Of a stretch of DNA of 64,000 nucleotides, positions 23,661 to 27,600 are shown one piece after another. Under the pieces are notes generated by a model. The model was not told where the DNA came from, did no database searches, and worked only from the letters and a program-made list of their open reading frames with translations. Source of the DNA: Ceratotherium simum simum (taxonomy: Eukaryota > Chordata > Mammalia > Perissodactyla > Rhinocerotidae); the NCBI RefSeq assembly GCF_000283155.1, contig NW_004454163.1, positions 20,109,437-20,173,436 on the forward strand, given 5' to 3'. Within the stretch, counting starts at the first letter, position 1. Each line of letters starts with the position of its first letter. The position numbers and the translations under genes were made by a program.

Positions 23661-24602
23661 TTTACGAATCGTAAGAACAGCAGAAAAAAGCCTCCTTTAC
23701 CCGAAGTGAAAGCGAAGATATAATATACTCCAATTGACTTTGCTATTTATATCCTGTAATCGGTCTAAAAGCATGAGAAAGGTTAGTGGACATTTTGTGG
23801 GGAGGTTAAATTTTGTGGCCATCTCTATGATGACGGTAGTAATCATCACAGGACAACCTTATATTTGTGTAGTTCTTTACAGTAATTTGCAAGGTATTTT
23901 CACACATAAAACTTTTGACCCTCACAATATCTCTAACCAGTAATGATACGTCTGTTATTAATCATCCTACTACACTGGGCAGAAACCAGGGCTTAGACTC
24001 AGGGTACCCTGGGATGGGGGTGCTGATCAGATAGGCCAGTAGTGCAGTGACACAACCTGGCTGGGTAAAATAAGACCAAGAGTCTGAGTCAAGGGTCACA
24101 GTGGACCAGGATCAGGACATGGGATGAGAAGGGTAGGTAATCAGGCCCTGAGAATCCAGATCCCAGGCAGGGGAACAGGCAACACAGATCAGGGACCCTA
24201 GAAGGGGCCCTCAGCACAGGTGGAGACCACAGCTGTACTTCCAGTTAAGAGCTAGGTGGTAGTTAATACCTAAAAGCCAATTAAGAATGACACTTTGGTA
24301 CTCTCCTTCTCAAGCCGGGTTGAGCATACAGCACTAGAGCAGAGGAAAAAAACAGTACCTAGTCAGTCACTGACGTGTAGTAATAACCAAAGTACAACTA
24401 TGTATCCCGTCTTAAGGCCGCAATTTACTGTAAATTAGCATTCCTTAATCATTTGTGATCCACCCACTTCAGATTTTGTATGTGGTACGTTTCTAGATTT
24501 GGATTCCAATTCCTGAATTGCTGGTTCAGCTTTTCAGCCACAAAATAATGTCTCTCTTCTCTTTTAATAATCTCGTTTAATAATTATTTTGTCTTTTTTC
24601 TC

Positions 24603-24675
24603 CTATAATGCTTCTTCTTTCAATTGCAGTTCGGTAAAATACTCATTTTCATTTACTGCTAAGAGTTTACGTAGC
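24603..24675 (-). CDS. MBD1: MBD1 alternative terminal exon 16b, derived from CFAP53 exon 3
   Basis: Acceptor ttttttgtttgtttcag; the first base completes the Arg of exon 15 and the frame reads LRKLLAVNENEYFT, ELQLKEEAL, then TAG (24605-24603). This matches an alternative C-terminus of human MBD1 as I remember it, and also CFAP53 exon 3 (LRELLASEENEYFT, EMQLKEET) from 18499 downward. Splice phase (2) is the same in both genes. The rest of the exon-3 copy (to about 24,490) is out of frame and would be 3' UTR, with ATTAAA-type signals at about 24,575-24,590. Confidence 0.9.
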
Positions 24676-27600
24676 CTGAAACAAACAAAAAAGACAGAAA
24701 TTAGACGGTCGGCTCGGTTCCCTGGACAGAGTCCTGAGGGCCAGTTCCTTGATCTTCGCGTCCCACGGGGACCTCGCCCGCCGGCTGGCCTGGGAGGAAC
24801 CGCCCCTCACATCACACCCCTGGGGAAGATGGGAGGCAGTGAAAACGCCCTAAGCCCGCCGCGCGGTTTGGGCGAAGCCGCTGAGATTCAGGGAACCGGA
24901 TCAGGAACCCCCAAGATCGTACTGCCCGGAGGGCCCCGTCGAAGTTTTCGGCGCGTGGGAAGCCGACTCTTGGCGACACCCGGCTGCCCTCGAACGTCCA
25001 ATCGTCGGTCCCGAGCTCGTCGTGCCGCCACCTCACCCCGGGTGAGCCTGACATTTTAACTCTGGTTGGGTTTTGCCTGTTTTACCACTACGTGAGGGGG
25101 ACTCGGCTTCCCTCTGGGCTGGCCCAAGGAAACGTCGGCGGGCGGAGGCCACGCCCCAGGGCCGCCGTCTCTGAGCTCCGGTGGGATGACCGCGGTCCCG
25201 GCGCCCCCTGGCGGGCCTATTCGAGCTGGGAGGGGCCGACCCGCCGCCCGCCGCGGTAAGCCTTGGCCTTTAGCCAAATCCCTGCGGAGGCCTAGAGGAG
25301 AGATTCACCCAAGGCCCTTGGATGGAACCTGACCTTGATCTTGCCACCCACTATCCCAGTTTCTCAGAGGCCGTTAACACTGTTACCACCATCAAGACAC
25401 TCCCAAAAGAAACACTAAGTATACGAATCAGTAAATAGGACAATATAAATCATTTAAAAATAACTTTAAAATACAACAGCTTAGACATAGAAACCATATT
25501 ATTTCCAATTCCTATTGTGCCCCAACAAGGTTCAAGCAAGGGCTGTCCTCCTGATAGTTTCCTGAATTCTCTATTTTCACCACTAAATTCCATGATAAAG
25601 TTGGAAATCCATTCACCATTTGTAATACATATTGATGCATTTAATAAAATTGTATGGACTATATCTTTCTCATTCCTGTATCCTAGTATTAAGTACAGTG
25701 CCTACCATGGGCTGGGTTCTCAATACTTGAATGACACAAAAATAGCCGAGACCAGCAAGTTTTTTCTGGGTGGGCTTGAGAGAATTTCTGTACTTGCTGG
25801 GGTCACCATGAAATCCATGGTCTTCAGCTTTGCATTTTCAGCAACGTAGCTTTATCAAGTTATCCTCAGGTGAGCAGTGAGACCCTTGGGAGCTGATTCA
25901 TGGCAGGGTGGCTTTGTAACGTGTCACCTTGACTAGGCTATGTTTCCCAGAACTCCCTTCCCTGTATGCTTCCAGTTAGGATGGGCCACCAGAGACATTC
26001 TGCGTGATAATTGGAGGGCAGAAGTGAAGCAGCAGCATACTGTTTTTACACTTGAAAGGCTGGTGCAGGGGCACCAGGCGCTGTTGCAGTTCACACATGT
26101 TGTCATATATCTGCTGGCTCACCTCGTTGGTGTGGGGCAGCAGGCAGGCCTGCAGCCAGGCCTGCAGCTGCTCCACCTTCCCCGGAATCTTCCTTCAGCT
26201 TCTCTAATTCCCGGGCCAGACGCATATTTAACTCTGTGATGAAGGGCACCAGCTTCTTCTGCAGGACACCCACATCATCGAAGTTGGAGGTGGTGAGAGA
26301 CTGACATGGGTTCCAGGCCATCCTCGTGGGTTCCAGCTCGTGCTCGTGGGCGCCAATATGTCCTTGGTCTCCCACACTTTATGTCCATCTTCCCTTCCCG
26401 ATTGCCTGCCCTGCAGACTTCAAGCTCCAGCATTAGATGCAAAGATAACAGCCTCACAGAGCCTGTTTAACCAGCTCCCACAACTGCCTAAGGTCAAATC
26501 CCTATAATAAATCCCTTAATATATATATGTGTGTGTGTGTGTATATATATATATAAAATCTTTATATTAGCAGTGCTGCTTTTCTGACTGAACCATGGTA
26601 AACATGGTAACCAGACTCTCATCTCATGAGTCAGAATGCCAATCAAATAAATTTCACTTTTAGGACATCACTTTCAAAATTACCAGAATACTAGGGTTGG
26701 GTGTTTGGATCCTGGGGGGAGCAAAACAATACCAGAAAATGATCCAGTCTTGACTCTGGCTGAAGTAGGTCGGGGGAGGCAAAGGAAGATGCAGAGGAGG
26801 GTGGCAGAGGGCTGTATCATGAGTCACAGCAGGGAAATGGCTAATCTACATCTGAATTATCTAAAGCTGCAGGGCTGGGACTGGAGTAAGTCAAGAGAAG
26901 TACATAGGCTACAGAATTTAAGGAGGCAAGCACTCAGTCTCAGCCATGTAAGCTGGCTAAGCAAAGAATCACAATCTAATCTTTTTGGCACTTTACGAAA
27001 AATGGACAGTGAGGCAGGGCTGAGCCAAGACTGGCCCTTAGGCAAGATTCGAAGCGGGAACTCAGACTCCTACTAGATGGGCTGAGAGAAGAAACCAGGC
27101 ACAAAGGTTATCAAGGGGCAGGGGATGCAAGTTGTCAGTGAAGATGAGCCAGGCTGGCAGCTTTACTTCTGAAGACTGTTTTTCCTGAAGAGGGGGAGGG
27201 AGGGTAACAAGCAAAATGGACAGCAGCCAGTGGGGAAGGATGCCATTCAGGGTTTGAAGAATCCTACACAGCACCCAAGGCCTGGGAATAACCCAGTCTC
27301 TGGATGCATGGATGCTCTGACAAGGTGGCCCACAGCCATGGCACTCCCTAAACCTCACTAGAGGCAGCAGTGTAAGGGATTTGTTAAAAATGCTTAGAGT
27401 AATCCACCTTGTTTTCAAGGTCATGGGAAACTTGTTATTATTACATGTTATTGAATATAGGATTACAGTTTACAGTTTAGTGGCTTAAAAAACACGGCTT
27501 TTATAACCTGGGTTTGACTCTAGGCTCTATCAATACTAGCTGTTTTACACTAGACAAGTTATTTAATTTCTCTGAGTCTCAGTTTTCCCATCTGTAAAAA

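Follow-up and report, generated by a model that had tools for sequence, protein, structure and literature searches.

This locus raises the question of how MBD1, which encodes a reader of DNA methylation, came by an alternative last coding exon that reads like a piece of the ciliary protein encoded by the neighboring gene, CFAP53. The answer, which we hold with high confidence, is that the MBD1 last exon starting at 24,675 was copied from CFAP53 exon 3; it lies within a segment that repeats the first 5 kb of CFAP53 colinearly and that likely originated by tandem duplication. The window, i.e., the whole stretch of 64,000 nucleotides that was analyzed, is mammalian DNA and belongs to a 2.45-Gb assembly that comprises 339 contigs. 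The features on which the argument is built are compiled in Table 1. The MBD1 model comprises 602 residues with the canonical and 613 residues with the alternative tail, and its best match among database proteins stems from the black rhinoceros (95%). A second MBD1 donor, located 21 nt beyond 29304, would account for the tail of the Diceros protein P0001. Behind the MBD1 5' end a CXXC-domain match is present at 43,094-42,936, and this match, together with the gene order, points to CXXC1 as the putative gene residing there.

Table 1. Features of the MBD1-CFAP53 region, given in positions of the window.
Feature	Position	Strand	Remarks
Native CFAP53 exons 1-3	23396-23322, 19196-18966, 18499-18325 (18325..23396)	-	CFAP53 chain in PDB, E 2e-90
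Block A, ~4.9 kb, between MBD1 exon 15 and CFAP53; repeats CFAP53 colinearly from exon 1 to intron 3	24367..29237	-	Six aligned stretches
Rest of the exon 3 copy past the stop, with a 10-nt deletion	24511..24602	-	CFAP53 donor GTAACG changed to GAATTG
MBD1 tail exon (alternative last coding exon), encodes LRKLLAVNENEYFTELQLKEEAL, stop 24605-24603	24603..24675	-	Alignment, frame, database MBD1 proteins
GC-rich stretch, 636 bp, in place of CFAP53 exon 2 and flanks	24693..25328	-	GC 0.66, CpG o/e 0.86
Insert in block A, 703 bp, with apolipoprotein A-IV-like coding remnant	25906..26608	-	Empty site in CFAP53 at 20204
Third MBD1 last exon, in the APOA4-bearing insert	Starts 26417, 26410; stops 26230-26228, 26277-26275	-	Exon in database proteins
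Canonical MBD1 last exon, SKDLKKRGARKQ, stop 28148-28146	28146..28185	-	Within block A; aligned counterpart in CFAP53 intron 1, 22373-22227
CFAP53 exon 1 remnant in block A, start ATG lost	29190..29237	-	
MBD1 model, 14 coding exons preceding the last one	29304..36706	-	Donor at 29304, phase 2
Copy C: CFAP53 promoter, exon 1, start of intron 1	55629..56623	-	
Copy E: CFAP53 promoter, exon 1, part of intron 1	58408..60788	-	

The original prediction had read the tail from 24,675 in frame after MBD1 exon 15 and had assigned the same phase to CFAP53 exon 3 from 18,499 downward; both readings are present in the sequence, the latter exon giving LRELLASEENEYFTEMQLKEETI. The acceptor TTTGTTTCAG is common to the two exons. 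Joining the MBD1 donor after ...TTGCCAAG to the tail exon results in AG|G CTA CGT and keeps the frame, such that a phase-2 donor at 29,304 meets a phase-2 acceptor before 24,675, and the proposed takeover of a working acceptor in the same frame agrees with what the sequence retains. Region 24,490-24,690 aligns with the CFAP53 side at 155 bits, while the best of 200 shuffles reached 39.7 bits. This alignment extends beyond the 70-bp coding part and, as had been claimed, past the stop into the flanking intron, covering the remainder of exon 3 and ~145 bp of intron 3. In the 5' direction, similarity is restricted to ~17 bp upstream of the tail exon because the GC-rich stretch occupies the place of exon 2 and the sequence flanking it; from 25,329 onward, similarity is found again as far as exon 1 at 29,237. 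A Pfam search of the GC-rich stretch yielded no credible family (best E 0.3).

The tail exon is therefore embedded in a much longer copy. Comparison of 23-33 kb with the CFAP53 side (counterpart 18,177-23,397) returned six stretches, 24,367-24,692, 25,329-25,401, 25,503-25,905, 26,609-26,740, 26,975-27,313 and 27,406-29,237, at offsets of 5.7-6.4 kb and with a best E-value of 2e-122, the weaker of which (55-70% identity) hinge on permissive alignment. Pieces of exon 1, intron 1, exon 3 and intron 3 follow each other in the original order in this block, termed block A, while exon 2 is missing. Chance similarity is ruled out, since none of 200 dinucleotide shuffles of block A gave a match with E<1e-5 and the top shuffle scored 34 bits vs. 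431 bits for the real sequence, and a transposon common to both sites is rejected as the cause because the aligned stretches include CFAP53 exons. The duplication of the CFAP53 5' region that had been postulated is thus supported, and it is larger than claimed. A continuation of block A past 24,367 was considered and discarded: segment 23,978-24,225 also matches 12,184-12,429 and 53,950-54,193 (63-64%), which are 66% identical to each other, and it may be a repeat that was left outside the block.

These comparisons strongly support a tandem genomic copy of CFAP53 exon 3 as the source of the tail exon. Tandem duplication would likely have put a duplicate of the initial 5 kb of CFAP53 directly behind MBD1; transcription of MBD1 would then pass the canonical end into block A, and the donor at 29,304 would splice to the copied acceptor at the tail exon. 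Among the internal CFAP53 acceptors, that of exon 3 alone was seen to persist in block A, and its phase fits. The copied exon has changed since. Codon 24 is GAG in CFAP53 and TAG in the tail exon, a single-base nonsense change, and two ATTAAA hexamers, the use of which is predicted, are located past the stop at 24581 and 24568. With a stop after 23 codons and its own donor lost, the tail exon would serve only as a last exon, and both changes fit a formerly internal exon that would now be exclusively terminal. Selection on the tail as judged from block A vs. CFAP53 alone was tried as a reading and does not hold: the 23 codons include 13 identical ones, 4 with silent differences and 6 that encode another amino acid, and the 54 nt past the stop are more alike (87%) than the 70 nt of the coding tail (80%).

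The original prediction overlooked that the canonical and a third last exon of MBD1 are also located in the block and that two more partial copies of CFAP53 are present upstream, at 55.6-60.8 kb. The third exon resides in the insert, the apolipoprotein A-IV match of which was obtained in a PDB sequence search (E 1.6e-14), while Pfam gave no firm APOA4 call for the insert (E 0.25). Its two acceptors, 7 nt apart, would yield two MBD1 tails depending on frame, SLQGRQ... and AGNREGK..., and these occur in many of the listed species including sloth, Tamandua and manatee. Three recurrent MBD1 last exons are accordingly found within the CFAP53-derived block, and further, rarer tails exist. In terms of position the MBD1 3' end lies in the block; in terms of history it would have been taken over by it.

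As the canonical last exon lies in the copied block and is aligned to CFAP53 intron 1, it was likely gained with the block as well, or it was already nested in CFAP53 before. The second of these possibilities leads to an alternative account of the whole arrangement, in which the MBD1 last exon resided in CFAP53 intron 1 prior to the duplication and the duplication split two overlapping genes, each of which retained its exons in one of the copies. Around the canonical exon, 141 sites align to CFAP53 intron 1 at 82% identity, and both the acceptor AG and the TAG are in register; out of eight stretches of intron 1, a single one (72 sites) has a higher identity, 86%. Against this, the version in CFAP53 intron 1 is frameshifted and unlike in the coding part, and we regard nesting as possible, if rather unlikely. 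On the preferred reading, i.e., capture of a copied CFAP53 segment by MBD1, the choice of the CFAP53-derived exon would give MBD1, in place of the basic C-terminus SKDLKKRGARKQ, an end that is more acidic and rich in leucine and lies near the repression domain, and this swap is predicted to alter partner binding or localization. According to a review, the C-terminus of MBD1 harbors this repression domain with contacts to MCAF1, MPG and HDAC3 (PMC4394467), and the site where the tails differ is near to it.

The two additional partial copies comprise CFAP53 promoter and exon 1 sequence. Block A (27402-28877) and copy E (58632-60134) are 87% identical over 1.5 kb, and the peptide of the canonical MBD1 last exon is repeated exactly in copy E at 59427-59389. 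On the exon 1 side of the 87% tract identity amounts to 42-55% in aligned windows, and beyond either end of the tract there are only short weak matches. The longest exact run between the two, 154 bp, covers the canonical last exon and was reached in none of 5,000 column shuffles (maximum 89), a pattern suggestive of recent gene conversion or of a second round of copying. When 27,402-29,304 was compared with its own genome, with 40 of 259 first-look candidates scored, 41 matches were obtained, 37 of them inside query positions 1652-1801, a common short repeat, and the remaining four represent the segment itself, copy E and two native CFAP53 stretches. In the searched part of the 50 kb right flank, the search for more copies gave a single match to a repeat-like piece. 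The promoter copies at 56455-56640 and 60620-60850 both keep CCATGGTGAC, and copy E also has CCATGGCAAC; these motifs resemble RFX X-box half sites.

For an estimate of its age, block A was compared with CFAP53 over 2,493 pooled non-exonic sites, which are 68% identical and correspond to 0.42 changes per site. At assumed rates of 2.2 to 1.2e-9 this loosely dates the copy to about 95-174 million years. The tail is found in MBD1 records of Boreoeutheria, Xenarthra and Afrotheria, and this spread together with the divergence indicates that the copy likely predates crown placentals. No marsupial MBD1 was among the rows listed, 120 each of 1316, 130 and 277 matches, so species provide no upper bound on the age; the 277 matches were returned by a length-shifted query aimed at marsupial MBD1, and none of the 120 listed was non-placental by name.

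The distribution of the tail was followed with a query of residues 574-613, which returned 130 matches, 120 of them listed. The tail is present in 112 of the 120, the other eight being fusions with native CFAP53; these same 112 are the tail-bearing entries among 225 fetched proteins, of which 108 were found by pattern and four more by reading. These records, mostly gene predictions, cover by name 42 genera from 11 placental orders, and include Loxodonta, Trichechus, Choloepus, Tamandua, Dasypus, Cynocephalus, two capuchins and Mus, for which UniProt isoforms 2 and 4 carry the tail. A tail exon in species lacking any CFAP53 duplication had been named as evidence to the contrary, and this point was addressed in part: all named rows among the 120 listed of 130 matches are placental, with no non-placental tail among them. 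Human was not seen among the matches listed; human MBD1 presumably has the tail. Four tail-bearing clusters of 507-634 aa (P0186, P0202, P0203 and P0206) have longest contigs of 2,545-3,135 bases, a length that fits spliced RNA because the coding gene spans >12 kb here.

The tail is more constant than the protein that carries it. In six of ten chosen pairs, all six of them cross-order, the tail is identical at 23/23 positions, against 70-85% identity elsewhere in the protein; of the remaining four pairs two show 22/23 and two 20/23, and the rest of the protein ranges from 57 to 85% across the ten pairs. Mouse scores 20/23 against both pig and elephant. Variants comprise the loss of a residue in capuchins, one residue fewer in Tamandua and altered starts in Nannospalax, and the manatee (Trichechus) record reaches the tail via another exon. 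In a neutral simulation of 22 codons with 20,000 runs per distance, the peptide stayed unchanged in 0.9% of runs at 0.1 and in 0.015% at 0.2 changes per site. Real distances are expected to exceed 0.2 changes per site. Conservation of the tail, assessed on peptides and not on silent rates, is thus beyond neutral expectation, and its identity across distant orders indicates that the 23 residues are probably kept by selection. A function of the tail would be deduced from conservation only.

Constancy of the tail bears on a further alternative, which holds that the tail exon is a by-product of read-through, that MBD1 joins any exon nearby and that the tail isoform is without function. Read-through between the two genes is documented. 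In the respective reports, an MBD1-CCDC11 read-through in human LNCaP cells is among 16 fusions with intergenic CTCF binding and is up on CTCF silencing (PMC4450057), exon 14 of one MBD1 transcript is joined to CFAP53 exon 2 in lung RNA of one patient, PCR-validated, with the frame not kept and 360 bp between the genes (PMC5053695), and MBD1-CFAP53 RNA is described for prostate cancer (PMC11995180). Polymerase hence does run from MBD1 into CFAP53 in human cells. Among 316 fetched proteins, 97 are MBD1-CFAP53 fusions by pattern, 89 of which contain the CFAP53 start region, a count to be read with the fact that one of the underlying searches was set to favor long proteins; examples are P0020, P0037 and P0088, and the dog protein P0020 enters native exon 3 in frame. 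Fusions to native CFAP53 exons thus exist besides the tail isoform. Plain conjoined read-through with cis-splicing is rejected as an explanation of the tail itself, as the tail exon is a separate copy located 6.2 kb upstream of native exon 3. The human chimeras and the fusion proteins are in line with the by-product view, and it is opposed by a tail that, despite drift elsewhere in MBD1, stays unchanged in elephant, sloth, pig, dingo, colugo and ground squirrel, and by a stop kept at the same place in nearly all tails read. We consider it unlikely that the tail is such a by-product.

A more far-reaching scenario is that the MBD1 3' end was wholly replaced by the CFAP53 piece and that methylation of a CpG-rich CTCF site at 25,201-25,214 chooses the tail. 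This site is the sole perfect CTCF-like core in the window, and it is situated in the CpG-rich stretch between the canonical end and the tail exon. When up to one mismatch to the CTCF core consensus is permitted, the window contains 4 matches vs. 1.34 expected, a number reached in 5 of 100 shuffles. If the site were unmethylated and bound, transcripts would stop early and encode the basic tail; if it were methylated or unbound, transcripts would continue to the CFAP53 tail or to CFAP53 itself. As MBD1 binds CpG DNA, it could even regulate its own tail. The full scenario appears distinctly improbable to us. In a narrower form, human read-through under CTCF and a CTCF-like core between the exons lead us to hypothesize that the choice of MBD1 tails may be controlled by CTCF.

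That a processed CFAP53 retrocopy, instead of a tandem genomic copy, gave rise to the tail exon is scarcely credible. The genome does contain such an element, intronless and with many stops (L003, 230-1684), and it resides on another contig; block A holds intron 1 and intron 3 sequence in order, on which grounds a retrocopy is rejected as the source. A 301-bp query over exon 3 retrieved from its own 2.45 Gb assembly only the block A copy, native CFAP53 and this one retrocopy, which identifies block A as a genomic and not an RNA-borne copy. To the reversed direction, a gain of CFAP53 exon 3 from MBD1, we give practically no credence, as nothing was found in its favor and CFAP53 exons 1-3 align with two distant chains of solved structure, 516 and 482 residues long (residues 11-158 and 28-158), and the tail amounts to a small truncated piece of this part.

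The arrangement implies that a gene can obtain last exons ready-made from a partial copy of its downstream neighbor, and that one piece of this kind has probably been retained for roughly the entire history of placental mammals. In the case of MBD1, 23 residues of a ciliary protein are placed near the repression domain of a DNA-methylation reader. It also bears on annotation, as MBD1 and CFAP53 labels are mixed, not only by the pattern-defined fusions among the fetched proteins; one solved CFAP53 sequence, common to four PDB entries (e.g., 7rro chain 3), carries both names.

Exon capture or shuffling can proceed by tandem duplication of a neighbor, whereby a copied exon of fitting phase is spliced into the adjacent gene. 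The MBD1 locus follows the same general scheme, and here the copy gives last exons only, three of them recurrent. Unlike in general exon capture, one MBD1 last exon came via a later, APOA4-bearing insert. What is new here is that not only the CFAP53-like tail exon, but also the canonical and the third last exon of MBD1 lie in a CFAP53-derived block. In the accessible parts of the literature searched, no paper appeared to derive the tail from CFAP53 exon 3 or the canonical exon from the block; the MBD1 mentioned in PMC8616336 belongs to a plant complex and is unrelated. The known C-terminal isoforms of MBD1 (mouse UniProt isoforms 2 and 4) have the same tail with few substitutions, joined after WLPR. 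The MBD1-CCDC11/CFAP53 chimeras (PMC4450057; PMC11995180; PMC5053695) involve the same gene pair in the same direction, with a late MBD1 exon joined to a CFAP53 exon; those chimeras connect native CFAP53 exons in human RNA, whereas at the present locus a separate copy of an exon ends the protein.
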